DNA from: Odontesthes bonariensis
Taxonomy: Eukaryota; Chordata; Actinopteri; Atheriniformes; Atherinopsidae
Assembly: GCF_027942865.1 (NCBI RefSeq)
Contig: NC_134510.1
Location: 22,003,209 to 22,067,208, forward strand
Direction: 5' to 3'
DNA: 64,000 nt
Below, one piece after another: positions 1-64,000 of the stretch. Within the stretch, counting starts at the first letter, position 1; every line of letters starts with the position of its first letter. A model generated the notes under the pieces. That model was not told the DNA's origin, searched no databases, and saw nothing but the letters and a program-made list of their open reading frames with translations. A program made the position numbers and the translations under genes.

Positions 1-62
1 TCACTTTACTAACATGGACTTTGTTTCCCTCTTGACAAACATCCACAATTCATAGTAGTCTT

Positions 63-135
63 TGCCGAAACACGGAATTGAACCAGGGACCTTCAGATCT
101 TCAGTCTGATGCTCTCCCAACTGAGCTTTTTCGGC
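63..135 (-). tRNA. tRNA-Phe-like, GAA, class F1a
   Basis: Acceptor stem and anticodon stem pair fully. The last T-loop base is T instead of C, which also changes the B box. Position 8 is A rather than the near-universal U. Its flank is duplicated 1303 bp downstream. Confidence 0.5.
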
Positions 136-185
136 TACAAAGGGCTAAAATGGCCGTTTTCATTTGGAAAGTAAAACCAGGAACT

Positions 186-199
186 CGCTCCGTGGAGCG
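186..199. other. Hairpin in the tRNA 5' flank (example)
   Basis: CGCTCC-GT-GGAGCG is a six-pair inverted repeat 51-64 nt upstream of the tRNA 5' end. Nearly every unit has it; in many the last arm is GGAGTG, which keeps a G-T pair. Confidence 0.6.
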
Positions 200-715
200 T
201 AGACGACAAAGCTGTGGAGCCAGATAAAGGCCACAAAATCGCAATAATTGACTGTTGTAGCTGAGGAAGAAGCCTCCTGTGTTTTCATTAATCTAGGTTT
301 TTCGATATGATTCCTTTTTGCCAGTTCAATTTCCTAACATGGTTTGTGTTCCCCTCTAGAAAAACATCCACAATTCATAGTAGTCTTTTCTAAAAGCTGG
401 GATTGAACCAGAGACCTTCAGATCTTCAGTCTGACGCTCCCCCAACTGAGCTATTTTGGCTACAAAGGGTTAAAATGGCAGCTTTCATTTGGAAAGTGAA
501 ACCAGGAACTCGCTCCGTGGAGTGTAGACGACAAAGCTGGGGAGCCAGATAAAGGCCACAAAAAAAATGCAATAACTGACTGTTGTAGCTGAGGAAGAAG
601 CCTCCTGTGTTTTCATCAATCTTGGTTTTTTGAGATGATTCCTTTTGAACAATTCACTTCCCTAACATGGGCTGTTGTTCCCTCTTGACAAACATCCACA
701 ATTCATAGTAGTCTT

Positions 716-748
716 TGCCGAAACCCAGGATTGAACGAGGGACCTTCT

Positions 749-780
<32 letters not shown>

Positions 781-788
781 TTTTCGGC
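716..788 (-). tRNA. tRNA-Phe-like, GAA, class F2
   Basis: The acceptor stem pairs fully. The anticodon stem is TCAGA/TCAGA with a central A-A mismatch, the T stem CCTCG/CTGGG has one mismatch, and position 8 is A. Anticodon GAA, G20 and A73 are kept. This describes class F2 as a whole. Confidence 0.5.
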
Positions 789-1040
789 TACAAAGGGCTA
801 AAATGGCAGCTTTCATTTTGAAACTAAAACCAGGAACTCGCTCCGTGGAGCGTAGACGACAAAGCTGTGGAGCCAGATAAAGGCCACAAAATCGCAATAA
901 TTGACTGTTGTAGATTAGGAAGAAGCCTCCTGTGTTTTCATCAATCTTGGTTTTTTGAGATGATTCCTTTTGAACAATTCACTTCCCTAACATGGGCTGT
1001 TGTTCCCTCTTGACAAACATCCACAATTCATAGTAGTCTT

Positions 1041-1073
1041 TGCCGAAACCCAGGATTGAACGAGGGACCTTCG

Positions 1074-1105
<32 letters not shown>

Positions 1106-1113
1106 TTTTCGGC
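1041..1113 (-). tRNA. tRNA-Phe-like, GAA, class F2
   Basis: Class F2, with an A-C rather than A-A mismatch in the anticodon stem. The same form is at 18261, 19564, 27690 and 28993. Confidence 0.5.
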
Positions 1114-1365
1114 TACAAAGGGCTAAAATGGCAGCTTTCATTTTGAAACTAAAACCAGGAACTCGCTCCGTGGAGCGTAGACGACAAAGCTGTGGAGCCA
1201 GATAAAGGCCACAAAATCGCAATAATTGACTGTTGTAGCTGAGGAAGAAGCCTCCTGTGTTTTCATTAATCTTGGTTTTTTGAGATGATTCCTTTTGACC
1301 AGTTCACTTTACTAACATGGACTGTGTTTCCCTCTTGACAAACATCCACAATTCATAGTAGTCTT

Positions 1366-1438
1366 TGCCGAAACACGGAATTGAACCAGGGACCTTCAGA
1401 TCTTCAGTCTGATGCTCTCCCAACTGAGCTTTTTCGGC
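1366..1438 (-). tRNA. tRNA-Phe-like, GAA, class F1a
   Basis: Same form as the copy at 63, which lies exactly 1303 bp (four units) upstream. Confidence 0.5.
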
Positions 1439-1715
1439 TACAAAGGGCTAAAATGGCCGTTTTCATTTGGAAAGTAAAACCAGGAACTCGCTCCGTGGAG
1501 CGTAGACGACAAAGCTGTGGAGCCAGATAAAGGCCACAAAATCGCAATAATTGACTGTTGTAGCTGAGGAAGAAGCCTCCTGTGTTTTCATTAATCTAGG
1601 TTTTTCGATATGATTCCTTTTTGCCAGTTCAATTTCCTAACATGGTTTGTGTTCCCCTCTAGAAAAACATCCACAATTCATAGTAGTCTTTTCTAAAAGC
1701 TGGGATTGAACCAGA

Positions 1716-1757
<42 letters not shown>

Positions 1758-2038
1758 TTTGGCTACAAAGGGTTAAAATGGCAGCTTTCATTTGGAAAGT
1801 GAAACCAGGAACTCGCTCCGTGGAGTGTAGACGACAAAGCTGTAGAGCCAGATAAAGGCCACAAAAAAATGCAATAATTGACTGTTGTAGCTGAGGAAGA
1901 AGCCTCCTGTGTTTTCATTAATCTAGTTTATTTTTGATGATTCCTTTTGACCAGTTCACTGTCCTAACATGGGCTTTGTTTCCCTCTTGACAAACATCCA
2001 CAATTCATAGCAGTCTTTGCCGAAACACGGGATTGACA

Positions 2039-2083
<45 letters not shown>

Positions 2084-2362
2084 TTTGGCTACAAAGGGTT
2101 AAAATGGCCGTTTTCATTTGGAAAGTAAAACCAGGAACTCGCTCCGTGGAGCGTAGACGACAAACCTGTGGAGCCAGATAAAGGCCACAAAATCGCAATA
2201 ATTGACTGTTGTAGCTGAGGAAGAAGCCTCCTGTGTTTTCATTAATCTAGGTTTTTTGAGATGATTCCTTTTGACTAGTTCACTTTCCTAACATTGGCTG
2301 TGTTTCCCTCTTGACAAACATCCACAATTCATAGTAGTCTTTGCCGAAACACGGGATTGACA

Positions 2363-2407
<45 letters not shown>

Positions 2408-2665
2408 TTTGGCTACAAAGGGTTAAAATGGCCGTTTTCATTTGGAATGTAAAACCAGGAGCTCGCTCCGTGGAGCGTAGACGACAAACCTGTGGAGCCA
2501 GATAAAGGCCACAAAATCGCAATAATTGACTGTTGTAGCTGAGGAAGAAGCCTCCTGTGTTTTCATTAATCTAGGTTTTTTGAGATGATTCCTTTTGACC
2601 AGTTCACTTTCCTAACATGGGCTGTGTTCCCCTCTTGACAAACATCCACAATTCATAGTAGTCTT

Positions 2666-2738
2666 TGCTGAAAGCTGGGATTGAACCAGCAACCTTCAAA
2701 TCTTAAGTCTGACGCTCTACCAACTGAGCTATTTTGGC
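2666..2738 (-). tRNA. tRNA-like, anticodon TAA, class L
   Basis: A 73-nt cloverleaf with loop CTTAAGA, so the anticodon is TAA (reads UUA, Leu). Anticodon stem TCAGA/TTTGA pairs with one wobble; T stem GCTGG/CCAGC is perfect around TTCAATC; U8 and a full A box are present. The acceptor stem has two mismatches (3-70 and 4-69). The variable arm is five bases, whereas eukaryotic tRNA-Leu has a long one. Position 20 is T, so both the G20 and GAA identity bases of tRNA-Phe are missing. It could be a pseudogene, a rewired Phe gene, or a relic of another short-arm tRNA. This describes class L as a whole. Confidence 0.6.
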
Positions 2739-3009
2739 TACAAAGGGTTAAAATGGCCGTTTTCATTTGGAATGTAAAACCAGGAGCTCGCTCCATGGAG
2801 CGTAGACGACAAAGCTGTGGAGCCAGATAAAGGCCACAAAATCGCAATAATTGACTGTTGTAGCTGAGGAAGAAGCCTCCTGTGTTTTCATTAATCTAGG
2901 TTTTTTGATATGATTCCTTTTTGCCAGTTCAATTTACTAACATGGTTTGTGTTCCCCTCTAGACAAACATCCACAATACATAGTCTTTGCCGAAACACGG
3001 GATTGAACG

Positions 3010-3054
<45 letters not shown>

Positions 3055-3329
3055 TTGGGCTACAAAAGGCTAAAATGGCAGCTTTCATTTGGAAAGTAAA
3101 ACCAGGAACTCGCTCCGTGGAGTGTAGACGACAAAGCTGGGGAGCCAGATAAAGGCCACAAAATCGCAATAATTGACTGTTGTAGCTGAGGAAGAAGCCT
3201 CCTTTGTTTTCATTAATCTAGGTTTATTGAGATGATTCCTTTTGACCAATTCACTTTCCTAACATGGGCTGTGTTTCCCTCTTGACAAACATCCAAAATT
3301 CATAGTAGTCTTTTCTGAAAGCTGGGATT

Positions 3330-3379
<50 letters not shown>

Positions 3380-3637
3380 TTTGGCTACAAAGGGTTAAAA
3401 TGGCCGTTTTCATTTGGAAAGTGAAACCAGGAACTCGCTCCGTGGAGCGTAGACAACAAAGCTGTGGAGCCAGATAAAGGCCACAAAATCGTAATAATTG
3501 ACTGTTGTAGCTGAGGAAGAAGCCTCCTGTGTTTTCATTAATCTAGTTTTTTTGAGATGATTCCTTTTGACCAGTTCACTTTCCTAACATGGGCTGTGTT
3601 TCCCTCTTGACAAACATCCAAAATTCATAGTAGTCTT

Positions 3638-3710
3638 TGCTGAAAGCTGGGATTGAACCAGCAACCTTCAAATCTTAAGTCTGACGCTCTACCAACTGAG
3701 CTATTTTGGC
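3638..3710 (-). tRNA. tRNA-like, anticodon TAA, class L
   Basis: Class L, 972 bp (three units) after 2666. Confidence 0.58.
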
Positions 3711-4288
3711 TACAAAGGGTTAAAATGGCCGTTTTCATTTGGAAAGTAAAACCAGGAGCTCGCTCCGTGGAGCGTAGACGACAAAGCTGTGGAGCCAGAT
3801 AAAGGCCACAAAATCGCAATAATTGACTGTTGTAGCTGAGGAAGAAGCCTCCTGTGTTATCGTTAATGCAGATTTTTTGGAGTTTATGCCTTTTTACCGG
3901 TTCAATTTCCTAACATGGGCTGTTGTTCCCTCTTGACAAACATCCACAATTCATAGTAGTCTTTGCCGAAACACGGGATTGAACCAGGGACCTTCAGATC
4001 TTCAGCCTGACGCTCTCCCAACTGAGCTATTTGGGCTACAAAAGGCTAAAATGGCAGCTTTCATTTGGAAAGTAAAACCAGGAACTCGCTCCGTGGAGTG
4101 TAGACAACAAAGCTGGGGAGCCAGATAAAGGCCACAAAATCGCAATAATTGACTGTTGTAGCTGAGGAAGAAGCCTCCTGTGTTTTCATCAATCTTGGTT
4201 TTTTGAGATGATTCCTTTTGAACAATTCACTTCCCTAACATGGGCTGTTGTTCCCTCTTGACAAACATCCACAATTCATAGTAGTCTT

Positions 4289-4321
4289 TGCCGAAACCCA
4301 GGATTGAACGAGGGACCTTCT

Positions 4322-4353
<32 letters not shown>

Positions 4354-4361
4354 TTTTCAGC
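4289..4361 (-). tRNA. tRNA-Phe-like, GAA, class F2
   Basis: Class F2 with C3 changed to T, giving a wobble pair at 3-70. Confidence 0.45.
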
Positions 4362-4613
4362 TACAAAGGGCTAAAATGGCAGCTTTCATTTTGAAACTAA
4401 AACCAGGAACTCGCTCCGTGGAGCGTAGACGACAAAGCTGTGGAGCCAGATAAAGGCCACAAAATCGCAATAATTGACTGTTGTAGCTGAGGAAGAAGCC
4501 TCCTGTGTTTTCATTAATCTTGGTTTTTTGAGATGATTCCTTTTGACCAGTTCACTTTACTAACATGGACTGTGTTTCCCTCTTGACAAACATCCACAAT
4601 TCATAGTAGTCTT

Positions 4614-4686
4614 TGCCGAAACACGGGATTAAACCAGGGACCTTCAGATCTTCAGTCTGATGCTCTCCCAACTGAGCTTTTTCGGC
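4614..4686 (-). tRNA. tRNA-Phe-like, GAA, class F1b
   Basis: Acceptor and anticodon stems pair. C56 of the T loop is T, so the B box reads GGTTTAATCC; C56 normally pairs with G19 and is important for TFIIIC binding, so function is doubtful. Confidence 0.45.
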
Positions 4687-4910
4687 TACAAAGGGCTAAA
4701 ATGGCCGTTTTCATTTGGAAAGTAAAACCAGGAACTCGCTCCGTGGAGCGTAGACGACAAAGCTGTGGAGCCAGATAAAGGCCACAAAATCGCAATAATT
4801 GACTGTTGTAGCTGAGGAAGAAGCCTCCTGTGTTTTCATTAATCTAGGTTTTTCGATATGATTCCTTTTTGCCAGTTCAATTTCCTAACATGGTTTGTGT
4901 TCCCCTCTAG

Positions 4911-4915
4911 AAAAA
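4911..4915 (-). terminator. T5 run, possible Pol III terminator
   Basis: Five T on the minus strand, 20 nt past the tRNA at 4936. The equivalent run occurs in 19 units that share the CTCTAGAAAAAC flank. Confidence 0.45.
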
Positions 4916-4935
4916 CATCCACAATACATAGTCTT

Positions 4936-4968
4936 TGCCGAAACCCGGGATTGAACGAGGGACCTTCT

Positions 4969-5000
<32 letters not shown>

Positions 5001-5008
5001 TTTTCGGC
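4936..5008 (-). tRNA. tRNA-Phe-like, GAA, class F3
   Basis: Acceptor stem perfect. T stem CCTCG/CCGGG has one C-C mismatch, the anticodon stem one A-A mismatch, and position 8 is A. Five T on the minus strand at 4911-4915 follow 20 nt downstream. Confidence 0.5.
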
Positions 5009-5285
5009 TACAAAGGGCTAAAATGGCAGCTTTCATTTGGAAAGTAAAACCAGGAACTCGCTCCGTGGAGTGTAGACGACAAAGCTGGGGAGCCAGATAA
5101 AGGCCACAAAATCGCAATAATTGACTGTTGTAGCTGAGGAAGAAGCCTCCTTTGTTTTCATTAATCTAGGTTTTTTGAGATGATTCCTTTTGACCAATTC
5201 ACTTTACTAACATGGGCTTTGTTTCCCTCTTGACAAACATCCACAATTCATAGTAGTCTTTTCTAAAAGCTGGGATTGAACCAGA

Positions 5286-5327
<42 letters not shown>

Positions 5328-5584
5328 TTTGGCTACAAAGGGTTAAAATGGCCGTTTTCATTTGGAAAGTGAAACCAGGAACTCGCTCCGTGGAGTGTAG
5401 ACGACAAAGCTGTAGAGCCAGATAAAGGCCACAAAAAAATGCAATAATTGACTGTTGTAGCTGAGGAAGAAGCCTCCTGTGTTTTCATTAATCTAGTTTA
5501 TTTGAGATGATTCCTTTTGACCAGTTCACTGTCCTAACATGGGCTTTGTTTCCCTCTTGACAAACATCCACAATTCATAGTCTT

Positions 5585-5617
5585 TGCCGAAACCCAGGAT
5601 TGAACGAGGGACCTTCT

Positions 5618-5649
<32 letters not shown>

Positions 5650-5657
5650 TTTTCGGC
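5585..5657 (-). tRNA. tRNA-Phe-like, GAA, class F2
   Basis: Class F2, in a unit with GGATCC in the 5' flank. Confidence 0.5.
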
Positions 5658-5942
5658 TACAAAGGGCTAAAATGGCAGCTTTCATTTTGAAACTAAAACC
5701 AGGAACTCGCTCCGTGGAGCGTAGACGACAAAGCTGTGGATCCAGATAAAGGCCACAAAATCGCAATAACTGACTGTTGTAGCTGAGGAAGAAGCCTCCT
5801 GTGTTTTCATTAATCTTGGTTTTTTGAGATGATTCCTTTTGACCAGTTCACTTTACTAACATGGACTGTGTTTCCCTCTTGACAAACATCCACAATTCAT
5901 AGTAGTCTTTGCTGAAACCTGGGATTGAACCAGGGACCTTCT

Positions 5943-5976
<34 letters not shown>

Positions 5977-6238
5977 TTGGGCTACAAAGGGCTAAAATGG
6001 CAGTTTTCATTTGGAAAGTAAAACCAGGAACTCGCTCCGTGGAGTGTAGACGACAAAGCTGGGGAGCCAGATAAAGGCCACAAAAAAAATGCAATAATTG
6101 ACTGTTGTAGCTGAGGAAGAAGCCTCCTGTGTTTTCGTTAATGCAGATTTTTTGGAGTTTATGCCTTTTTACCGGTTCACTTTCCTAACATGGGCTGTTG
6201 TTCCCTCTTGACAAACATCCACAATTCATAGTAGTCTT

Positions 6239-6311
6239 TGCCGAAACACGGGATTGAACCAGGGACCTTCAGATCTTCAGTCTGATGCTCTCCCAACTGA
6301 GCTTTTTCGGC
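6239..6311 (-). tRNA. tRNA-Phe, GAA, class F1
   Basis: All seven acceptor pairs form (GCCGAAA with TTTCGGC), the anticodon stem TCAGA/TCTGA pairs fully, the loop CTGAAGA carries GAA, and the T loop is TTCAATC. The T stem has one C-T mismatch. Position 20 is G and position 73 is A, both known tRNA-Phe identity bases. Position 8 is A, not U, which weakens the first base of the A box. This describes class F1 as a whole. Confidence 0.65.
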
Positions 6312-6912
6312 TACAAAGGGCTAAAATGGCCGTTTTCATTTGGAAAGTGAAACCAGGAACTCGCTCCGTGGAGCGTACACAACAAAGCTGTGGAGCCAGA
6401 TAAAGGCCACAAAATCGTAATAATTGACTGTTGTAGCTGAGGAAGAAGCCTCCTGTGTTTTCATTAATCTAGTTTTTTTGAGATGATTCCTTTTGACCAG
6501 TTCACTTTCCTAACATGGGCTGTGTTTCCCTCTTGACAAACATCCACAATTCATAGTAGTCTTTGCTGAAACCTTGGATTGAACGAGGGACCTTCAGATC
6601 TTCAGTCTGATGCTCTCCCAACTGAGCTATTTGGGCTACAAAGGGCTAAAATGGCAGCTTTCATTTGGAAAGTAAAACCAGGAACTCGCTCCGTGGAGTG
6701 TAGACGACAAAGCTGGGGAGCCAGATAAAGGCCACAAAAAAAATGCAATAATTGACTGTTGTAGCTGAGGAAGAAGCCTCCTGTGTTTTCATTAATCTAG
6801 GTTTTTTGAGATGATTCCTTTTGACTAGTTCACTTTCCTAACATTGGCTGTGTTTCCCTCTTGACAAACATCCACAATTCATAGTAGTCTTTGCCGAAAC
6901 ACGGGATTGACA

Positions 6913-6957
<45 letters not shown>

Positions 6958-7215
6958 TTTGGCTACAAAGGGTTAAAATGGCCGTTTTCATTTGGAATGT
7001 AAAACCAGGAGCTCGCTCCGTGGAGCGTAGACGACAAACCTGTGGAGCCAGATAAAGGCCACAAAATCGCAAAAATTGACTGCTGTAGCTGAGGAAGAAG
7101 CCTCCTGTGTTTTCATTAATCTAGGTTTTTTGAGATGATTCCTTTTGACCAGTTCACTTTCCTAACATGGGCTGTGTTCCCCTCTTGACAAACATCCACA
7201 ATTCATAGTAGTCTT

Positions 7216-7288
7216 TGCTGAAAGCTGGGATTGAACCAGCAACCTTCAAATCTTAAGTCTGACGCTCTACCAACTGAGCTATTTTGGC
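7216..7288 (-). tRNA. tRNA-like, anticodon TAA, class L
   Basis: Class L, in a flank with GGAATGTAAAACC. Confidence 0.58.
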
Positions 7289-7557
7289 TACAAAGGGTTA
7301 AAATGGCCGTTTTCATTTGGAATGTAAAACCAGGAGCTCGCTCCGTGGAGCGTAGACGACAAAGCTGTGGAGCCAGATAAAGGCCACAAAATCGCAATAA
7401 TTGACTGTTGTAGCTGAGGAAGAAGCCTCCTGTGTTTTCATTAATCTAGGTTTTTCGATATGATTCCTTTTTGCCAGTTCAATTTACTAACATGGTTTGT
7501 GTTCCCCTCTAGACAAACATCCACAATACAGTCTTTGCCGAAACCCGGGATTGAACG

Positions 7558-7602
<45 letters not shown>

Positions 7603-7877
7603 TTGGGCTACAAAAGGCTAAAATGGCAGCTTTCATTTGGAAAGTAAAACCAGGAACTCGCTCCGTGGAGTGTAGACGACAAAGCTGGGGAGCCAGATAA
7701 AGGCCACAAAATCGCAATAATTGACTGTTGTAGCTGAGGAAGAAGCCTCCTTTGTTTTCATTAATCTAGGTTTTTTGAGATGATTCCTTTTGACCAATTC
7801 ACTTTCCTAACATGGGCTTTGTTTCCCTCTTGACAAACATCCACAATTCATAGTAGCCTTTTCTGAAAGCTGGGATT

Positions 7878-7927
<50 letters not shown>

Positions 7928-8185
7928 TTTGGCTACAAAGGGTTAAAATGGCCGTTTTCATTTGGAAAGTGAAACCAGGAACTCGCTCCGTGGAGCGTAG
8001 ACAACAAAGCTGTGGAGCCAGATAAAGGCCACAAAATCGTAATAATTGACTGTTGTAGCTGAGGAAGAAGCCTCCTGTGTTTTCATTAATCTAGTTTTTT
8101 TTAGATGATTCCTTTTGACCAGTTCACTTTCCTAACATGGGCTGTGTTTCCCTCTTGACAAACATCCACAATTCATAGTAGTCTT

Positions 8186-8258
8186 TGCTGAAAGCTGGGA
8201 TTGAACCAGCAACCTTCAAATCTTAAGTCTGACGCTCTACCAACTGAGCTATTTTGGC
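8186..8258 (-). tRNA. tRNA-like, anticodon TAA, class L
   Basis: Class L, 970 bp after 7216. Confidence 0.58.
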
Positions 8259-8511
8259 TACAAAGGGTAAAAATGGCCGTTTTCATTTGGAAAGTAAAAC
8301 CAGGAACTCGCTCCGTGGAGCGTAGACGACAAAGCTGTGGAGCCAGATAAAGGCCACAAAATCGCAATAATTGACTGTTGTAGCTGAGGAAGAAGCCTCC
8401 TGTGTTATCGTTAATGCAGATTTTTTGGAGTTTATGCCTTTTTACCGGTTCAATTTCCTAACATGGGCTGTTGTTCCCTCTTGACAAACATCCACAATTC
8501 ATAGTAGTCTT

Positions 8512-8544
8512 TGCCGAAACCCAGGATTGAACGAGGGACCTTCT

Positions 8545-8576
<32 letters not shown>

Positions 8577-8584
8577 TTTTCGGC
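8512..8584 (-). tRNA. tRNA-Phe-like, GAA, class F2
   Basis: Class F2, preceded by an ATGCAG-type spacer. Confidence 0.5.
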
Positions 8585-9158
8585 TACAAAGGGCTAAAAT
8601 GGCAGCTTTCATTTTGAAACTAAAACCAGGAACTCGCTCCGTGGAGCGTAGACGACAAAGCTGTGGAGCCAGATAAAGGCCACAAAATCGCAATAATTGA
8701 CTGTTGTAGCTGAGGAAGAAGCCTCCTGTGTTTTCATTAATCTTGGTTTTTTGAGATGATTCCTTTTGACCAGTTCACTTTACTAACATGGACTGTGTTT
8801 CCCTCTTGACAAACATCCACAATTCATAGTAGTCTTTGCCGAAACACGGGATTGAACCAGGGACCTTCAGATCTTCATCCTGACACTCTCCCAACTGAGC
8901 TATTTTGGCTACAAAGGGTTAAAATGGCCGTTTTCATTTGGAATGTAAAACCAGGAGCTCGCTCCGTGGAGCGTAGACGACAAACCTGTGGAGCCAGATA
9001 AAGGCCACAAAATCGCAATAATTGACTGTTGTAGCTGAGGAAGAAGCCTCCTGTGTTTTCATTAATCTAGGTTTTTTGAGATGATTCCTTTTGACCAGTT
9101 CACTTTCCTAACATGGGCTGTGTTCCCCTCTTGACAAACATCCACAATTCATAGTCTT

Positions 9159-9191
9159 TGCCGAAACCCAGGATTAAACGAGGGACCTTCT

Positions 9192-9225
<34 letters not shown>

Positions 9226-9510: not shown

Positions 9511-9550
<40 letters not shown>

Positions 9551-54565: not shown

Positions 54566-54610
<45 letters not shown>

Positions 54611-54868
54611 TTTGGCTACAAAGGGTTAAAATGGCCGTTTTCATTTGGAATGTAAAACCAGGAGCTCGCTCCGTGGAGCGTAGACGACAAAGCTGTGGAG
54701 CCAGATAAAGGCCACAAAATCGCAATAATTGACTGTTGTAGCTGAGGAAGAAGCCTTCTGTGTTTTCATTAATCTAGGTTTTTTGAGATGATTCCTTTTG
54801 ACCAGTTCACTTTCCTAACATGGGCTGTGTTTCCCTCTTGACAAACATCCACAATTCATAGTAGTCTT

Positions 54869-54941
54869 TGCTGAAAGCTGGGATTGAACCAGCAACCTTC
54901 AAATCTTAAGTCTGACGCTCTACCAACTGAGCTATTTTGGC
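54869..54941 (-). tRNA. tRNA-like, anticodon TAA, class L
   Basis: Class L. The base just outside the 5' end region differs (CTACGAAGG). Confidence 0.58.
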
Positions 54942-55214
54942 TACGAAGGGTTAAAATGGCCGTTTTCATTTGGAAAGTAAAACCAGGAACTCGCTCCGTG
55001 GAGCGTAGACGACAAACCTGTGGAGCCAGATAAAGGCCACAAAATCGCAATAATTGACTGTTGTAGCTGAGGAAGAAGCCTCCTGTGTTTTCATTAATCT
55101 AGTTTTTTTGAGATGATTCCTTTTGACTAGTTCACTTTCCTAACATTGGCTGTGTTTCCCTCTTGACAAACATCCACAATTCATAGTAGTCTTTGCCGAA
55201 ACACGGGATTGACA

Positions 55215-55259
<45 letters not shown>

Positions 55260-56503
55260 TTTGGCTACAAAGGGTTAAAATGGCCGTTTTCATTTGGAAT
55301 GTAAAACCAGGAGCTCGCTCCGTGGAGCGTAGACGACAAAGCTGGGGAGCCAGATAAAGGCCACAAAAAAAATGCAATAATTGACTGTTGTAGCTGAGGA
55401 AGAAGCCTCCTGTGTTTTCATTAATCTAGGTTTTTTGAGATGATTCCTTTTGACCAGTTCACTTTCCTAACATGGGCTGTGTTCCCCTCTTGACAAACAT
55501 CCACAATTCATAGTAGTCTTTGCTGAAACCTGGGATTGAACCAGGGACCTTCAGATCTTCAGTCTGATGCTCTCCCAACTGAGCTATTTGGGCTACAAAG
55601 GGCTAAAATGGCAGCTTTCATTTGGAAAGTAAAACCAGGAACTCGCTCCGTGGAGTGTAGACGACAAAGCTGGGGAGCCAGATAAAGGCCACAAAAAAAA
55701 TGCAATAATTGACTGTTGTAGCTGAGGAAGAAGCCTCCTGTGTTATCGTTAATGCAGATTTTTTGGAGTTTATGCCTTTTTACCGGTTCAATTTCCTAAC
55801 ATGGGCTGTTGTTCCCTCTTGACAAACATCCACAATTCATAGTAGTCTTTGCCAAAACACGGGATTGAACCAGGGACCTTCAGATCTTCAGCCTGACGCT
55901 CTCCCAACTGAGCTATTTTGGCTACAAAGGGTTAAAATGGCCGTTTTCATTTGGAAAGTAAAACCAGGAACTCGCTCCGTGGAGCGTAGACGACAAACCT
56001 GTGGAGCCAGATAAAGGCCACAAAATCGCAATAATTGACTGTTGTAGCTGAGGAAGAAGCCTCCTGTGTTTTCATTAATCTAGGTTTTTTGAGATGATTC
56101 CTTTTGACCAGTTCACTTTACTAACATTGGCTGTGTTTCCCTCTTGACAAACATCCACAATTCATAGTAGTCTTTGCTGAAACACGGGATTGAACCAGGG
56201 ACCTTCAGATCTTCAGCCTGACGCTCTCCCAACTGAGCTATTTTGGCTACAAAGGGCTAAAATGGCAGCTTTCATTTGGAAAGTAAAACCAGGAACTCGC
56301 TCCGTGGAGCGTAGACGACAAAGCTGGGGAGCCAGATAAAGGCCACAAAAAAAATGCAATAATTGACTGTTGTAGCTGAGGAAGAAGCCTCCTGTGTTTT
56401 CGTTAATGCAGATTTTTTGGAGTTTATGCCTTTTTACCGGTTCACTTTCCTAACATGGGCTGTTGTTCCCTCTTGACAAACATCCACAATTCATAGTAGT
56501 CTT

Positions 56504-56576
56504 TGCCGAAACACGGGATTGAACCAGGGACCTTCAGATCTTCAGTCTGATGCTCTCCCAACTGAGCTTTTTCGGC
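56504..56576 (-). tRNA. tRNA-Phe, GAA, class F1
   Basis: Class F1. Its 5' flank is the CTTTTGGAAAATAAAAC variant shared with 58779 and 63657. Confidence 0.6.
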
Positions 56577-56851
56577 TACAAAGGGCTAAAATGGCCGTTT
56601 TCTTTTGGAAAATAAAACCAGGAACTCCCTCCATGGAGTGTAGACGACAAAGCTGTAGAGCCAGATAAAGGCCACAAAAAAATGCAATAATTGACTGTTG
56701 TAGCTGAGGAAGAAGCCTCCTGTGTTTTCATTAATCTAGGTTTTTTGAGATGATTCCTTTTGACCAGTTCACTTTCCTAACATTGGCTGTGTTTCCCTCT
56801 TGACAAACATCCACAATTCATAGTAGTCTTTGCCGAAACACGGGATTGACA

Positions 56852-56896
<45 letters not shown>

Positions 56897-57126
56897 TTTG
56901 GCTACAAAGGGTTAAAATGGCCGTTTTCATTTGGAAAGTAAAACCAGGAACTCGCTCCGTGGAGCGTAGACGACAAAGCTGTGGAGCCAGATAAAGGCCA
57001 CAAAATCGCAATAATTGACTGTTGTAGCTGAGGAAGAAGCCTCCTGTGTTTTCATTAATCTAGTTTTTTTGAAATGATTCCTTTTTGCCAGTTCAATTTC
57101 CTAACATGGTTTGTGTTCCCCTCTAG

Positions 57127-57131
57127 AAAAA
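57127..57131 (-). terminator. T5 run, possible Pol III terminator
   Basis: Five T on the minus strand, 23 nt past the 3' end of the tRNA at 57155. Most units lack any T4 run this close. Confidence 0.5.
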
Positions 57132-57154
57132 CATCCACAATTCATAGTAGTCTT

Positions 57155-57171
57155 TGCTGAAACCTGGGATT

Positions 57172-57221
<50 letters not shown>

Positions 57222-57227
57222 TTCGGC
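57155..57227 (-). tRNA. tRNA-Phe, GAA, class U8, best copy
   Basis: This is one of the most complete cloverleaves in the window. Position 8 is U, the A box is TAGCTCAGTTGG, G20 and A73 are present, the anticodon stem pairs fully, and the T stem CCTGG/CCAGG is perfect around TTCAATC. The only defect I find is a C-A pair at 3-70 (3' strand TTTCAGC). A run of five T on the minus strand (57127-57131) lies 23 nt beyond the 3' end and could terminate Pol III. I rate it the likeliest working gene together with 49134 and 59753. Confidence 0.72.
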
Positions 57228-57476
57228 TACAAAGGGCCAAAATGGCAGCTTTCATTTGGAAAGTAAAACCAGGAACTCGCTCCATGGAGCGTAGATGACA
57301 AAGCTGTGGAGCCAGATAAAGGCAAAAAAATCGCAATAATTGACTGTTGTAGCTGAGGAAGAAGCCTACTGTGTTTTCATTAATCTAGGTTTTTCGATAT
57401 GATTCCTTTTTGCCAGTTCAATTTCCTAACATGGTTTGTGTTCCCCTCTAGACAAACATCCACAATACATAGTCTT

Positions 57477-57549
57477 TGCTGAAACCCGGGATTGAACGAG
57501 GGACCTTCTTATCCTCAGCCTGACGCTCTCCCAACTGAGCTATTTTGGC
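57477..57549 (-). pseudogene. tRNA-like, anticodon GAG
   Basis: The anticodon loop reads CTGAGGA (GAG), and the anticodon stem has several mismatches. The acceptor stem has a C-A mismatch at 3-70 and an A-C mismatch at 4-69. It is most likely a decayed Phe copy, not a Leu gene. Confidence 0.55.
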
Positions 57550-57822
57550 TATAAAGGGTTAAAATGGCCGTTTTCATTTGGAAAGTAAAACCAGGAACTC
57601 GCTCCGTGGAGCGTAGACGACAAACCTGTGGAGCCAGATAAAGGCCACAAAATCGCAATAATTGACTGTTGTAGCTGAGGAAGAAGCCTCCTGTGTTTTC
57701 ATTAATCTAGGTTTTTTGAGATGATTCCTTTTGACTAGTTCACTTTCCTAACATTGGCTGTGTTTCCCTCTTGACAAACATCCACAATTCATAGTAGTCT
57801 TTGCCGAAACACGGGATTGACA

Positions 57823-57867
<45 letters not shown>

Positions 57868-58125
57868 TTTGGCTACAAAGGGTTAAAATGGCCGTTTTCA
57901 TTTGGAATGTAAAACCAGGAGCTCGCTCCGTGGAGCGTAGACGACAAACCTGTGGAGCCAGATAAAGGCCACAAAATCGCAATAATTGACTGTTGTAGCT
58001 GAGGAAGAAGCCTCCTGTGTTTTCATTAATCTAGGTTTTTTGAGATGATTCCTTTTGACCAGTTCACTTTCCTAACATGGGCTGTGTTCCCCTCTTGACA
58101 AACATCCACAATTCATAGTAGTCTT

Positions 58126-58198
58126 TGCTGAAAGCTGGGATTGAACCAGCAACCTTCAAATCTTAAGTCTGACGCTCTACCAACTGAGCTATTTTGGC
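58126..58198 (-). tRNA. tRNA-like, anticodon TAA, class L
   Basis: Class L; repeated 1302 bp on at 59428. Confidence 0.58.
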
Positions 58199-58778
58199 TA
58201 CAAAGGGTTAAAAGGGCCGTTTTCATTTGGAAAGTAAAACCAGGAACTTGCTCCGTGGAGCGTAGACGACAAAGCTGTGGAGCCAGATAAAGGCCACAAA
58301 ATCGCAATAATTGACTGTTGTAGCTGAGGAAGAAGCCTCCTGTGTTTTCATTAATCTAGGTTTTTTGAGATGATTCCTTTTGACCAGTTCACTTTACTAA
58401 CATTGGCTGTGTTTCCCTCTTGACAAACATCCACAATTCATAGTAGTCTTTGCTGAAACACGGGATTGAACCAGGGACCTTCAGATCTTCAGCCTGACGC
58501 TCTCCCAACTGAGCTATTTTGGCTACAAAGGGCTAAAATGGCAGCTTTCATTTGGAAAGTAAAACCAGGAACTCGCTCCGTGGAGAGTAGATGACAAAGC
58601 TGGGGAGCCAGATAAAGGCCACAAAAAAATGCAATAATTGACTGTTGGAGCTGAGGAAGAAGCCTCCTGTGTTTTCGTTAATGCAGATTTTTTGGAGTTT
58701 ATGCCTTTTTACCGGTTCACTTTCCTAACATGGGCTGTTGTTCCCTCTTGACAAACATCCACAATTCATAGTAGTCTT

Positions 58779-58851
58779 TGCCGAAACACGGGATTGAACC
58801 AGGGACCTTCAGATCTTCAGTCTGATGCTCTCCCAACTGAGCTTTTTCGGC
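58779..58851 (-). tRNA. tRNA-Phe, GAA, class F1
   Basis: Class F1, with the same variant 5' flank as 56504. Confidence 0.6.
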
Positions 58852-59124
58852 TACAAAGGGCTAAAATGGCCGTTTTCTTTTGGAAAATAAAACAAGGAAC
58901 TCCCTCCATGGAGTGTAGACGACAAAGCTGTAGAGCCAGATAAAGGCCACAAAATCGCAATAATTGACTGTTGTAGCTGAGGAAGAAGCCTCCTGTGTTT
59001 TCATTAATCTAGGTTTTTTGAGATGATTCCTTTTGACTAGTTCACTTTCCTAACATTGGCTGTGTTTCCCTCTTGACAAACATCCACAATTCATAGTAGT
59101 CTTTGCCGAAACACGGGATTGACA

Positions 59125-59169
<45 letters not shown>

Positions 59170-59427
59170 TTTGGCTACAAAGGGTTAAAATGGCCGTTTT
59201 CATTTGGAATGTAAAACCAGGAGCTCGCTCCGTGGAGCGTAGACGACAAACCTGTGGAGCCAGATAAAGGCCACAAAATCGCAATAATTGACTGTTGTAG
59301 CTGAGGAAGAAGCCTCCTGTGTTTTCATTAATCTAGGTTTTTTGAGATGATTCCTTTTGACCAGTTCACTTTCCTAACATGGGCTGTGTTCCCCTCTTGA
59401 CAAACATCCACAATTCATAGTAGTCTT

Positions 59428-59500
59428 TGCTGAAAGCTGGGATTGAACCAGCAACCTTCAAATCTTAAGTCTGACGCTCTACCAACTGAGCTATTTTGGC
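59428..59500 (-). tRNA. tRNA-like, anticodon TAA, class L
   Basis: Class L, the last one in the window, one unit left of the class U8 copy at 59753. Confidence 0.58.
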
Positions 59501-59724
59501 TACAAAGGGTTAAAATGGCCGTTTTCATTTGGAAAGTAAAACCAGGAACTCGCTCCGTGGAGCGTAGACGACAAAGCTGTGGAGCCAGATAAAGGCCACA
59601 AAATCGCAATAATTGACTGTTGTAGCTGAGGAAGAAGCCTCCTGTGTTTTCATTAATCTAGTTTTTTTGAAATGATTCCTTTTTGCCAGTTCAATTTCCT
59701 AACATGGTTTGTGTTCCCCTCTAG

Positions 59725-59729
59725 AAAAA
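59725..59729 (-). terminator. T5 run, possible Pol III terminator
   Basis: Five T on the minus strand, 23 nt past the tRNA at 59753. Confidence 0.5.
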
Positions 59730-59752
59730 CATCCACAATTCATAGTAGTCTT

Positions 59753-59769
59753 TGCTGAAACCTTGGATT

Positions 59770-59819
<50 letters not shown>

Positions 59820-59825
59820 TTCGGC
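59753..59825 (-). tRNA. tRNA-Phe, GAA, class U8
   Basis: Duplicate of the 57155 unit (2598 bp apart). It differs by one T-stem mismatch (CCTGG with CAAGG) in addition to the C-A pair at 3-70. U8, G20, A73 and the paired anticodon stem are kept, and a T5 run follows. Confidence 0.65.
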
Positions 59826-60074
59826 TACAAAGGGCCAAAATGGCAGCTTTCATTTGGAAAGTAAAACCAGGAACTCGCTCCATGGAGCGTAGATGACAAA
59901 GCTGTGGAGCCAGATAAAGGCAAAAAAATCGCAATAATTGACTGTTGTAGCTGAGGAAGAAGCCTACTGTGTTTTCATTAATCTAGGTTTTTCGATATGA
60001 TTCCTTTTTGCCAGTTCAATTTCCTAACATGGTTTGTGTTCCCCTCTAGACAAACATCCACAATACATAGTCTT

Positions 60075-60147
60075 TGCTGAAACCCGGGATTGAACGAGGG
60101 ACCTTCTTATCCTCAGTCTGACGCTCTCCCAACTGAGCTATTTCGGC
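60075..60147 (-). pseudogene. tRNA-like, anticodon GAG
   Basis: Duplicate of the 57477 copy (2598 bp apart) with the same GAG loop and mispaired anticodon stem. Its 5' acceptor strand is GCCGAAA with U8. Confidence 0.55.
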
Positions 60148-60628
60148 TACAAAGGGCTAAAATGGCAGCTTTCATTTGGAAAGTAAAACCAGGAACTCGC
60201 TCCGTGGAGTGTAGACGACAAAGCTGGGGAGCCAGATAAAGGCCACAAAATCGCAATAATTGACTGTTGTAGCTGAGGAAGAAGCCTCCTTTGTTTTCAT
60301 TAATCTAGGTTTTTTGAGATGATTCCTTTTGACCAATTCACTTTCCTAACATGGGCTTTGTTTCCCTCTTGACAAACATCCACAATTCATACTAGTCTTT
60401 GCTGAAACCTTGGATTGAACCAGGGACCTTCAGATCTTCAGTCTGATGCTCTCCCAACTGAGCTATTTGGGCTACAAAGGGCTAAAATGGCAGCTTTCAT
60501 TTGGAAAGTAAAACCAGGAACTCGCTCCGTGGAGTGTAGACGACAAAGCTGTGGATCCAGATAAAGGCCACAAAATCGCAATAATTGACTGTTGTAGCTG
60601 AGGAAGAAGCCTCCTGTGTTTTCATTAA

Positions 60629-60645
60629 CCTTTGATGCGCAACAT
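60629..60645 (+). repeat. Left terminal inverted repeat
   Basis: Seventeen bases, CCTTTGATGCGCAACAT, directly after TTAA; one C shorter than the right end. Confidence 0.85.
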
Positions 60646-60672
60646 ATGCACACCCCCTGTAATGCACAACAT

Positions 60673-60905
60673 GGGTCAAAAATGACCCGCATTCATTTCC
60701 AAGGTAATTTCATGCTGGCTGAGTTTCTCTTTGTTCTATCTTTTGAAATCAATTTAATTTATGATTGAATATTCCAAGTATTCTTTAAATATCTTGTTTT
60801 TGATCACCACTGATCATTATTTTCATTTTTACTTTCATACTTTATAAGCAAAAGTAGTTTTTATATTACTACATCGAATTTACACACATGGGTCAAAAAT
60901 GACCC
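60673..60905 (+). repeat. Left subterminal arm bounded by two palindromes
   Basis: It starts and ends with GGGTCAAAAATGACCC (60673-60688 and 60890-60905). Shared landmarks with the right arm include GCATTCATTT, GGCTGAG, AAATATCTTGTTTTTG and TTTACACACATGGGTC. Confidence 0.75.
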
Positions 60906-61041
60906 ATTCATCCAAATGTGACATAAAATAAAGTAACTTAATACTATTTAACTCTTTTCAAGTAGTTACTTTAGCAGTGAGTGGGGCCAAACAATTATTT
61001 AGTATTTGCAACATGTTTGTCATTTTTTCACACGCACATAC
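60906..61041. other. Unassigned transposon interior, left
   Basis: AT-rich sequence between the left arm and the nested repeat. I see no gene or motif in it. Confidence 0.5.
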
Positions 61042-61555
61042 TGTCAGGTTTTTGGGGTGGCAAAGCAGGTGGACCCACATGCAGACACTGCAGGCTGAAC
61101 AAAGCATCTTTAATATAACCAAAAAGGGTTATAGGCAAGATCCAAAAACAGAAAATGGAAGAACAAGGCAAATAGGGAAAACATGACTATGACTTTGACT
61201 ATGACGACTACAATACAAATACAACTACCAGACAAAGACCAGAACGGCAAGACTTACTTTGGAAGACTAATGACGCAACAACAAAATAAATAACTTAAAT
61301 ACAAAGGGGAAGAAGAACAGGTGAAGAGAGGGAGGAGAAGCTCAGGTGAGGGGAGTGAGCAGAATATGGATTGGTGGGGAAAACACCAGGAGGCAGGGAT
61401 GAACAAACAATACAACAAGACAGAGGTGTGAGCAATCAAAAACGAGCAGGAAAAAGACAAAGACAGAAAGTGAACAGAACACAAGAGGACAACCACTACA
61501 AAAACAGGAACTAAACAATAGAACCAAGACAGGAAATAACATAACCATGATAACA
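61042..61555. mobile_element. Nested interspersed repeat of uncertain class
   Basis: Base composition changes sharply to an A-rich (plus strand) stretch of about 514 bp, starting TGTCAGGTTTTTGGGGTGG and ending near CATGATAACA, the latter a possible decayed inverted match to TGTCA. The motifs GGACCCACATGCAGAC and CTCAGGTGAGGGG resemble a repeat I remember as common in teleost genomes, but I cannot name the family. No coding region or clear target duplication is visible. Confidence 0.35.
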
Positions 61556-61821
61556 GTTAACACATAACCCTACCCTAACGACTAACTAAAATAGAATATG
61601 TCAACAGCTAGCTAATAATAATTATTTGTAACTTTCTGACAAGTAATGTACTCACTCTCAAGGTAACCTAAACCTAATCATCATATAATGTAATGTAATG
61701 TTATCTTTCACTACTGTCATCAAGAAATCTCTAAAGTAATATTAGTACAATTGAAAAACAAAACTTACTGTGCTTATGTGTGATGGGAGCTGTGCTGAGC
61801 TGTGAAATGGTAAATGCATGC
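61556..61821. other. Unassigned transposon interior, right
   Basis: AT-rich sequence between the nested repeat and the right inner arm, with a short ATGTAATGTAATGTTA stretch. No gene seen. Confidence 0.5.
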
Positions 61822-62055
61822 GGGTCCTGTCTGACCCATGTGTGTAAACTGGATGTAGCAATACAAAAGCTGTGCTTCTTCATAAAGTAAGAGAGGAAAA
61901 TAAAAATAAAGATTTGTGCTGAACAAAAACAAGATATTTACTGCATACTTGGAATAGAAAATGATTGATGATTAATTTATTTCAGAGATATATCATAGAA
62001 ACCCTCAGCCATACATCAAGTAACATAGAAAATGAATGCGGGTCATTTTTGACCC
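61822..62055 (-). repeat. Right inner arm, inverted relative to the left arm
   Basis: Bounded by a decayed palindrome at 61822-61837 and an intact one at 62040-62055. It matches the left arm on the opposite strand over its full length, with many differences. Confidence 0.75.
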
Positions 62056-62244
62056 ATGTTGCGCATTAGAGGGGTAGTGATTCAAAAAGGGTTTTTATTC
62101 AAAAAGTAAGAAAGGAAAAAATAAAATAAGGATGCATGATGATTAAAAACAAGTTAATTGAGGAATACCTTGAATATTGAATGATAAAGTTAATTTATTG
62201 CAAAGATATGGAAAATTAAAACTCAGCCGGGTCACTTTTGACCC
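62056..62244 (-). repeat. Right outer arm
   Basis: A shorter, further diverged arm ending in the palindrome GGGTCACTTTTGACCC at 62229-62244. It shares GGCTGAG, the AATAAATTAA stretch and the CTTGTTTTT landmark with the other arms. Confidence 0.6.
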
Positions 62245-62262
62245 ATGTTGCGCATCAAAGGG
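62245..62262 (-). repeat. Right terminal inverted repeat
   Basis: Eighteen bases, reading CCCTTTGATGCGCAACAT on the minus strand, directly before TTAA. Confidence 0.85.
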
Positions 62263-62383
62263 TTAATCTAGGTTTTTTGAGATGATTCCTTTTGACCAGT
62301 TCACTTTCCTAACATTGGCTGTGTTTCCCTCTTGACAAACATCCACAATTCATAGTAGTCTTTGCCGAAACACGGGATTGACA

Positions 62384-62428
<45 letters not shown>

Positions 62429-63036
62429 TTTGGCTACAAAGGGTTAAAATGGCCGTTTTCATTTGGAAAGTAAAACCAGGAACTTGCTCCGTGGAGCGTA
62501 GACGACAAAGCTGGGGAGCCAGATAAAGGCCACAAAAAAAATGCAATAATTGACTGTTGTAGCTGAGGAAGAAGCCTCCTGTGTTATCGTTAATGCAGAT
62601 TTTTTGGAGTTTATGCCTTTTTACCGGTTCAATTTCCTAACATGGGCTGTTGTTCCCTCTTGACAAACATCCACAATTCATAGTAGTCTTTGCCGAAACA
62701 CGGGATTGAACCAGGGACCTTCAGATCTTCAGCCTGACGCTCTCCCAACTGAGCTATTTTGGCTATAAAGGGTTAAAATGGCCGTTTTCATTTGGAAAGT
62801 AAAACCAGGAACTCGCTCCGTGGAGCGTAGACGACAAACCTGTGGAGCCAGATAAAGGCCACAAAATCGCAATAATTGACTGTTGTAGCTGAGGAAGAAG
62901 CCTCCTGTGTTTTCATTAATCTAGGTTTTTTGAGATGATTCCTTTTGACCAGTTCACTTTCCTAACATTGGCTGTGTTTCCCTCTTGACAAACATCCACA
63001 ATTCATAGTAGTCTTTGCCGAAACACGGGATTGACA

Positions 63037-63081
<45 letters not shown>

Positions 63082-63656
63082 TTTGGCTACAAAGGGTTAA
63101 AATGGCCGTTTTCATTTGGAAAGTAAAACCAGGAACTCGCTCCATGGAGCGTAGACGACAAAGCTGTGGAGCCAGATAAAGGCCACAAAATCGCAATAAT
63201 TGACTGTTGTAGCCTCCTGTGTTTTCATTAATCTAGTTTTTTTGAGATGATTCCTTTTGACCAGTTCACTTTACTAACATTGGCTGTGTTTCCCTCTTGA
63301 CAAACATCCACAATTCATAGTAGTCTTTGCTGAAACACGGGATTGAACCAGGGACCTTCAGATCTTCAGTCTGATGCTCTCCCAACTGAGCTATTTTGGC
63401 TACAAAGGGCTAAAATGGCAGCTTTCATTTGGAAAGTAAAACCAGGAACTCGCTCCGTGGAGCGTAGACGACAAAGCTGGGGAGCCAGATAAAGGCCACA
63501 AAAAAAATGCAATAATTGACTGTTGTAGCTGAGGAAGAAGCCTCCTGTGTTTTCGTTAATGCAGATTTTTTGGAGTTTATGCCTTTTTACCGGTTCACTT
63601 TCCTAACATGGGCTGTTGTTCCCTCTTGACAAACATCCACAATTCATAGTAGTCTT

Positions 63657-63729
63657 TGCCGAAACACGGGATTGAACCAGGGACCTTCAGATCTTCAGTC
63701 TGATGCTCTCCCAACTGAGCTTTTTCGGC
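63657..63729 (-). tRNA. tRNA-Phe, GAA, class F1
   Basis: Class F1, right of the transposon, with the same variant 5' flank as 56504 and 58779. Confidence 0.6.
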
Positions 63730-63983
63730 TACAAAGGGCTAAAATGGCCGTTTTCTTTTGGAAAATAAAACCAGGAACTCCCTCCATGGAGTGTAGACGA
63801 CAAAGCTGTAGAGCCAGATAAAGGCCACAAAAAAATGCAATAATTGACTGTTGTAGCTGAGGAAGAAGCCTCCTGTGTTTTCATTAATCTAGGTTTTTTG
63901 AGATGATTCCTTTTGACCAGTTCACTTTCCTAACATTGGCTGTGTTTCCCTCTTGACAAACATCCACAATTCATAGTAGTCTT

Positions 63984-64000
63984 TGCCGAAACACGGGATT
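63984..64000 (-). tRNA. tRNA-like copy cut by the window edge
   Basis: Only the 3' acceptor strand and the start of the T arm are inside the window; the class cannot be assigned. Confidence 0.6.

Follow-up and report, generated by a model that had tools for sequence, protein, structure and literature searches.

Is a long tandem series of tRNA-Phe-like segments in the fish Odontesthes bonariensis a working gene array, or a satellite built from one? An earlier note, made from the letters of the window (the whole stretch of DNA analysed, 64,000 nucleotides), had described a ~325-bp tRNA-Phe satellite of 192 copies, each unit carrying one minus-strand tRNA-Phe-like segment. Independent searches agree with this description. 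TRF, a tandem-repeat finder of the kind the note had proposed as a check, returns a period of 325 bp with 185.9 copies over 1-60628 and a period of 329 bp with 5.4 copies over 62263-64000. Rfam finds 190 tRNA segments at the gathering score, with RF00005 on the minus strand in every one of the 150 matches listed of these 190. nhmmer finds 191 tRNA-Phe-like segments in the window, all on the minus strand, as are all 140 ARAGORN tRNA calls. A 28-base spacer word has 192 matches in the window (at most 2 mismatches); read backwards, it has 0 matches in the entire genome. The series is also unbroken but for one insert, as had been claimed: in an nhmmer search with a unit seed, 60638-62261 is the sole interruption longer than 5 bp within the window. 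The features of the array in the window are as follows.

1..60637, minus strand: left part of the array, ~325-bp units with one tRNA-Phe-like segment each (TRF, nhmmer, Rfam)
1366..1438, minus strand: representative tRNA-Phe-like segment with anticodon GAA, from the class whose tRNA position 8 is A (ARAGORN; Rfam 61.3 bits)
2666..2738, minus strand: representative copy whose Phe body has anticodon TAA (ARAGORN)
49860..50289, minus strand: one of two long units, 430 bp (spacing list)
60638..62261, strand not applicable: 1.6-kb insert flanked by TTAA, with termini CC(C)TTTGATGCGCAACAT / ATGTTGCGCATCAAAGGG (array gap, junctions)
62262..64000, minus strand: right part of the array (TRF, nhmmer gap list)

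The window is the middle portion of a larger array of 128.8 kb and 368 segments by nhmmer (C6:21,975,205-22,103,990). The left part extends beyond the window start to the first of these positions and the right part past the window to the second, with a second insert of 6.4 kb. A beta2-chimaerin-like gene flanks the array on one side and a serine-carboxypeptidase gene on the other, and there are protein-gene exons ~15 kb from either array end. Across the C6 array, 360/367 segment spacings are 280-360 bp on a single strand, with a mean pairwise identity of 93%, forming the long head-to-tail series of similar units that characterizes a satellite. Five spacings in the window fall outside 318-332 bp: 314, 313, 430 (twice) and one that spans the insert; the second 430-bp unit ends at 54292. 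The TTAA-flanked insert at 60638-62261, in which there is no open frame of at least 110 aa, we take to be piggyBac-like. Anticodon TAA occurs on the Phe body of 19/191 window copies.

We then scored the segments with a strict structural check comprising all 21 stem pairs and the Pol III A and B boxes, the boxes being judged against a consensus. All 21 stem pairs are present in 0/368 C6 segments and 0/191 in the window, and the intact class that the earlier note had placed in the window is therefore not found there. The interleaving of classes it described holds for ARAGORN-callable (140) and uncallable copies, which are mixed along the array, but the callable ones carry mispairs too and none is strictly intact. 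Its estimate of about 190 A/B-box pairs is weakened as well: by the consensus used here, the A box is kept in 134/191 window copies, the B box in 101/191 and both in 78/191. A single mispair is the only one in 30/191 window copies, and one mispair is tolerable in a working tRNA. Old changes common to C6 copies are G4C or G4A, T8A, T41A, G52C and the loss of T54. Two window copies illustrate the state of the best-preserved sequences.

49134..49206, minus strand: window copy nearest to intact sister-array sequence; its one difference, G4C, breaks pair 4-69
57155..57227, minus strand: highest Rfam score among the window copies (67.6 bits), with two CpG-type changes, mispair 3-70 and a T4 run at +23

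Annotation calls for caution here, as ARAGORN reports 140 tRNA genes in the window, none of them fully paired.

CpG-type changes are in excess. Their rate per base and copy is 19.3%, compared with 0.95% for the remaining C>T/G>A changes; counted by site, the figures are 10/18 CpG vs 17/127 others (p 1.7e-4). This decay strikes the acceptor stem and T stem of the C6 copies, and the acceptor stem of tRNA-Phe contains two CpGs that are paired with each other. With a CpG o/e of 0.49, the window is on a par with its two flanks (0.49 and 0.51), which gives no sign of special silencing.

The C6 array is one member of a family. The spacer word has 1,505 matches genome-wide, and among the 100 listed, all lie in array-like series in C1, C2 and C6. 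C2 and the C1 array at 29.5 Mb still contain intact tRNA-Phe. A fully paired cloverleaf with both boxes, as a functional array should hold, is found in 32/140 copies of the C2 stretch examined and in 13/25 copies of 10 kb of C1, against 0/368 in C6. Without CpG columns, the tRNA/flank diversity ratio is 0.18 in C1 (a sample of 39 copies, 23 unique), 0.56 in C2 and 0.94 in C6, the intervals of C2 (0.22-1.14) and C6 (0.47-1.71) overlapping. A C6 ratio above those of C1 and C2 is what would be expected if selection had been lost in C6, where the tRNA segment is no better conserved than its flanks. With all columns the C6 ratio is 1.44; fast evolution of the tRNA (diversity 0.084 vs 0.063 for the spacer) was considered and rejected, as it vanishes once CpG columns are removed. 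Between C1 and C2 the tRNA differs by 3.7% and the flanks by 11.7%; within C6 the corresponding values are 8.6% and 5.7%. A midpoint-rooted FastTree tree groups the copies by array (368/368 C6, 139/139 C2 and 39/39 C1 at 29.5 Mb), with group support low for C6 (0.09) and reaching 0.72 for C2 and 0.83 for C1.

Copy number in C6 follows a different course from gene integrity. We found 92 recurring ordered runs of at least 3 units, whereas in 20 controls with the units shuffled there were 0-2 such runs, of no more than 3 units each, and block duplications reach 37 units. Such block-wise copying of units is a further mark of a satellite. Together with a tRNA no more conserved than its spacer, it upholds the earlier suggestion that copy number tracks block duplication and not preservation of the whole gene. 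Amplification of C6 driven by demand for tRNA is rejected, given that no segment is fully paired and that the tRNA is as variable as the spacer. The block duplications fit unequal exchange, which would be the underlying process.

The C6 array is thus most probably a retired tRNA-Phe gene array, now a satellite, that is copied in blocks while its sister arrays keep intact copies. A ~325-bp unit consisting of a tRNA-Phe gene and its spacer would have been amplified in tandem and have ended up on several chromosomes, after which the arrays would have been homogenised, each largely independently. C6 would have lost its intact copies while C1 and C2 retained many, and block copying in C6 would have continued after decay, with unequal exchange between chromatids as the simplest process. 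We infer that decay ran from intact to decayed, and the C6 copies presumably give little or no usable tRNA-Phe.

The position of the terminator bears on what the arrays may still transcribe. The first T-run lies 149 nt downstream of the tRNA segment in 114/191 window copies, as in the example copy:

1213..1216, minus strand: sense-strand T4 run, the first to follow, 149 nt past the example segment 1366..1438 (sequence reading)

A T-run within 40 nt of the gene is found in 24/191 window copies, and in 0/32 intact C2 copies within the 45 nt examined downstream. A missing near terminator was rejected as a sign of death: intact C1 and C2 sister copies mostly have none either, so dead and intact copies cannot be told apart by it. 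It is possible, if unlikely, that in this animal cytosolic tRNA-Phe comes almost only from the homogenised tandem arrays via long-trailer precursors (first T-run of the shared unit mostly ~145-285 nt downstream), and that C6, though retired, may still give Pol III satellite RNAs of ~220 nt with a tRNA-like head.

We think it improbable that the array is a stage-specific reservoir, supplying tRNA-Phe in oocytes or early embryos like the repetitive tRNA clusters of zebrafish. In zebrafish, egg-stage tRNAs are reported to come from repetitive regions and later ones from isolated genes (PMC11417395), and silent Arabidopsis tRNA clusters are reported to become active again in some cells even though methylated (PMC12308677); the 140 ARAGORN calls and the 78/191 copies with both boxes by our consensus would accord with such a role. 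Against it, 0/368 copies are strictly intact, the tRNA segments vary as much as the spacer, and the C1 and C2 arrays suit the role better. A selected chromatin domain, kept because TFIIIC would occupy its A/B boxes and so insulate or organise the surrounding region, seems quite improbable, and the TFIIIC-binding domain that the earlier note had suggested is weakened. By our consensus the B box persists in 101/191 window copies and both boxes in 78/191, and a human tRNA tandem repeat at 1q23.3 is implicated as a boundary by its CTCF motif (PMC4041453); the T arm, which holds the B box, nevertheless ranks with the most variable stretches of the unit (0.148 vs a spacer mean of 0.063), which would be unexpected if the B box were what is kept.

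Misassembly that inflated the copy number is very improbable. A 37-unit (12-kb) block to the right of the window is duplicated with 36/37 units exact, as an artefact might leave; yet 194/360 units are distinct, blocks vary in size and lag, each of the two inserts (1.6 kb and 6.4 kb) occurs once within the C6 array, the sister arrays have other unit lengths, and there is no N within the stretch. Least probable of all is a Pol III retroelement, such as a SINE with a tRNA head, that became tandem: the tRNA head, unrelated body and T-run ~149 nt past the head in most copies recall one, but complete tRNA-Phe stands with the same spacer in the sister arrays and, among the 100 listed of the 1,505 spacer matches, all are in arrays (C1, C2, C6) and none is dispersed. 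We also set aside a centromere satellite, which would sit oddly with protein-gene exons so near both array ends. The catfish Xba element was considered for its unit length alone and set beside the array by description only; it is reported to be centromeric, 321-325 bp, 65.5% AT and restricted to some ictalurids (PMC10071708).

We found no paper describing the C6 array in the open-access literature; the systems nearest to it are compared here. In zebrafish, repetitive clusters (chromosome 4 long arm) contain predicted tRNA genes by the thousand, with ~60% of the predicted genes on a heterochromatic chromosome and copy number uncoupled from tRNA level (PMC11574265, PMC11417395). These too are repetitive tRNA gene clusters of a fish, but they are mostly isotype-heterogeneous (PMC2888827), whereas C6 has one isotype per unit and lacks a strictly intact copy alongside intact sister arrays. 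The Arabidopsis SYY and tRNA-Cys clusters likewise repeat a short tRNA-bearing unit in tandem, SYY being largely silent and the Cys cluster having 0.4-kb units, a pseudogene and variable copy number (PMC12308677, PMC10701932); they differ in being from plants, in the far fewer copies of the Cys cluster and in SYY genes reported as functional. Human 1q23.3 is a tandem tRNA-bearing repeat of unstable copy number, but its units are GC-rich, 7.3 kb long and include a CTCF site besides several tRNA genes, at 9-43 units per allele (PMC4041453). In the protist Entamoeba, tandem tRNA arrays make up a sizeable share of the genome, but these are described as its regular tRNA genes, with up to 5 per unit and short internal repeats (PMC2652664). 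Harttia catfish have satellites partly derived from tRNA genes, which are reported to be mosaics that include SINE or LINE pieces (PMC11955569), whereas a C6 unit consists of a single tRNA segment plus its own spacer, and intact sister arrays exist.

Tandem arrays of tRNA genes are known, as are satellites that contain tRNA parts, but the transition from one to the other can rarely be observed. In this genome the same unit occurs in three states: C1 constrained, C2 mixed, and C6 without a strictly intact copy or detectable constraint. If the retirement of C6 is correct, the family would offer a natural series for when selection releases a multicopy gene and material on how exchange keeps copying dead genes, and would show how CpG decay harms a tRNA with two mutually pairing CpGs in its acceptor stem.

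When neighbouring stretches are added to the window, the array runs from 21,975,205 to 22,103,990 of C6, the contig that carries the window at 22,003,209-22,067,208 (genome of 945 Mb, 187 contigs). It contains 368 tRNA-like segments, every one on the minus strand, with 360 of 367 spacings falling within 280-360 bp and a mode of 325 bp (n = 164). TRF gives a period of 325 over window positions 1-60628 and 329 over 62263-64000. Within the window, ARAGORN recognized 140 tRNA segments, Rfam 190 at gathering score (all RF00005 among the 150 matches listed) and nhmmer 191, and a word taken from the spacer matched 192 times. The earlier note had described a tRNA-Phe gene turned into a ~325-bp satellite with 192 copies; the period and the copies found across the window bear this out, and the spacer word returns the same count. 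Nineteen of 191 window copies, including that at 2666-2738, carry the anticodon TAA (Leu codon UUA) on a Phe-like body, a class with an Rfam score of 64.2 bits and two acceptor mispairs in the alignment. Two elements break the array:

60638-62261 (in the window): insert between TTAA sequences
65505-71923 in window coordinates (right of the window): 6.4-kb insert; 8-bp duplication GTTTTCAT, element ends CAGAGGTGG/CCACCTCTG

We take the first to be piggyBac-like; it contains repeated GGGTCAAAAATGACCC-like stretches, and may have a nested element inside. The second, presumably hAT-like, has transposase-like open frames; the one compared with Pfam gave no match. Exon-like open frames lie beyond both ends of the array: those on the left match beta2-chimaerin, with a best E of 7e-43, and a GLTP domain, and those on the right serine carboxypeptidase and bZIP domains. 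Pfam matched four of the seven frames submitted to it; the three without a match include the beta2-chimaerin frame. With the closest of these exons standing off the array by ~15.6 kb on the left and ~14 kb on the right, the locus does not look like a centromere.

We scored each copy for 21 stem pairs (G-U accepted) and for the Pol III A and B boxes by consensus. None of the 368 C6 segments passed both tests, and the intact classes proposed in the earlier note are thus not found in this array. In the window, 30 of 191 copies have a single mispair and 133 have two to six; another 28 are 72-nt copies without one T-loop base, and were left out of pair scoring. The pairs most frequently broken among the 163 full-length window copies are 4-69 (89), 3-70 (72), 52-62 (61) and 29-41 (60). 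By this consensus, the A box is kept in 134/191 window copies, the B box in 101/191 and both in 78/191. Since one mispair is no proof of a dead tRNA, the exact claim for C6 is that none is strictly intact. The suggestion that the array could act as a TFIIIC domain is weakened.

The array also bears marks of amplification in blocks. Counting runs of at least three units that have a second occurrence in the array with an identity of at least 98.5%, we observed 92 recurring runs spanning 292/360 units; 20 shuffles of unit order gave 0-2 runs each, of at most 3 units. There are 194 distinct units among the 360. Runs fully within the window are 10 to 13 units long, and a 15-unit run starts just left of the window edge. 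Unequal exchange would most simply account for this recurrence, with other copying routes as an alternative. The longest run lies to the right, from window coordinate 73081: there a block of 37 units recurs immediately after itself (lag 37) with 36/37 exact, and this is either a very recent duplication or a duplication made by local assembly error.

The spacer is not confined to C6. With up to two mismatches allowed, the spacer word occurs 893 times forward and 612 times in reverse across the genome (control search: 0), and the 100 listed lie on contigs C1, C2 and C6. As the examined C6 stretch holds 372 of the total and the examined C2 stretch 95, ~1,040 lie elsewhere. When as many as three mismatches are allowed, a vertebrate-type tRNA-Phe pattern has 222 genome matches; each of the 100 listed has exactly three mismatches and one common sequence, with 94 in C1:29.49-29.63 Mb, 1 at C1:24.56 Mb and 5 in C2. 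Both match lists look mismatch-ordered, so closer copies are probably absent from the genome. The sister arrays include:

C1:29,489,926-29,626,310, plus strand: tRNA-Phe sister array
C2, from 16,547,034 to at least 16,620,000: sister array; exact spacer matches among those listed reach 16.625 Mb

The C1 array, with spacings of ~325, 370, 393 and 461 bp, accounts for 94 of the 100 listed matches, all with one intact sequence, and is probably the chief source of intact tRNA-Phe found to date. Of 30 stretches collected by the searches, some of them overlapping, four on C1 served for a count of intact copies, which number 13/25 in one 10-kb stretch, 3/8 and 4/7 in two shorter stretches, and 1/5 near C1:24.56 Mb. 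On C2, many units measure 325 bp plus multiples of 72 bp, the difference being a 72-bp sub-repeat multiplied within the spacer; of 140 copies in the part examined, 32 are intact, and 20 match one sequence exactly. A tRNA family search returned 59,621 first-look candidates genome-wide, and its best-scored matches are often in C16:24-33 Mb (a further contig) and C2:34-39 Mb, which may be further tRNA-rich regions.

Measured against the intact sequence, C6 copies have changed by 19.3% per base per copy at CpG-type positions and 0.95% at other C>T/G>A positions; the C2 values, from 81 of 95 then-known copies picked by full 3' end, are 6.3% and 0.6%. Because copies share mutations, we added a site-based count: 10/18 CpG bases carry a transition at 2% or more versus 17/127 other C/G (Fisher p 1.7e-4). 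Of the four CpGs in the tRNA, those at 3-4 and 69-70 pair together, so decay at either one disrupts the acceptor stem. CpG o/e in the window, 0.49, is at the level of its flanks (0.49, 0.51), and array cores have 0.49 on C6, 0.64 on C2 and 0.68 on C1. By this measure the C6 array looks like ordinary genome, and the higher values suggest that the C1 and C2 arrays are perhaps partly protected.

The first T-run in units from all three contigs is mostly at a common site far from the gene (GCGATTTTGTGG in C6, GCGTTTTTGTGG in C1), ~144-150 nt away in C6 and ~146-284 nt in C1, where it varies with sub-repeats. In window copies the first T4 run is at +149 in 114/191 and within 40 nt in 24/191; 29/95 C2 copies have no T-run within 330 nt. 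A nearby T4 occurs in 33/368 C6 copies (within 30 nt), 9/140 C2 copies (within 40 nt) and 6/25 copies of the C1 10-kb stretch (at +14). We regard the distal T-run as a putative terminator.

Zebrafish chromosome 4 holds ~60% of predicted tRNA genes and is called almost wholly heterochromatic (PMC11574265), zebrafish egg-stage tRNAs are encoded by repetitive regions (PMC11417395), tRNA gene clustering varies widely among teleosts (PMC2888827), tandem tRNA repeats occur at human 1q23.3 (PMC4041453) and in Arabidopsis (PMC12308677, PMC10701932), and satellites partly derived from tRNA are mentioned in work on Harttia (PMC11955569). Our search of open-access literature found no report of the C6 tRNA-Phe array.

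To compare the arrays, we placed 551 copies in a single alignment (368 from C6, 139 from C2, 39 from C1 29.5 Mb and 5 from C1 24.6 Mb). With CpG-capable columns excluded, the ratio of tRNA to flank diversity is 0.94 in C6 (95% 0.47-1.71) and 0.56 in C2 (95% 0.22-1.14), intervals that overlap, and 0.18 in C1 29.5 Mb (95% 0-0.59), a small sample of 39 copies, 23 of them unique. Ratios are 1.44, 0.69 and 0.54 over all columns, and 0.98, 0.65 and 0.20 for unique sequences outside CpG. The C6 values would fit a loss of constraint on the tRNA segment in that array. Between C1 and C2 the tRNA differs by 3.7% and the flanks by 11.7%; within C6 the values are 8.6% and 5.7%. A midpoint-rooted FastTree tree groups copies by array (C6 368/368, C2 139/139, C1 29.5 Mb 39/39, C1 24.6 Mb 4/5), although the C6 group has support of 0.09, against 0.72 for C2 and 0.83 for C1. 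Beyond the earlier note, the analysis adds sister arrays that show graded constraint within one genome.
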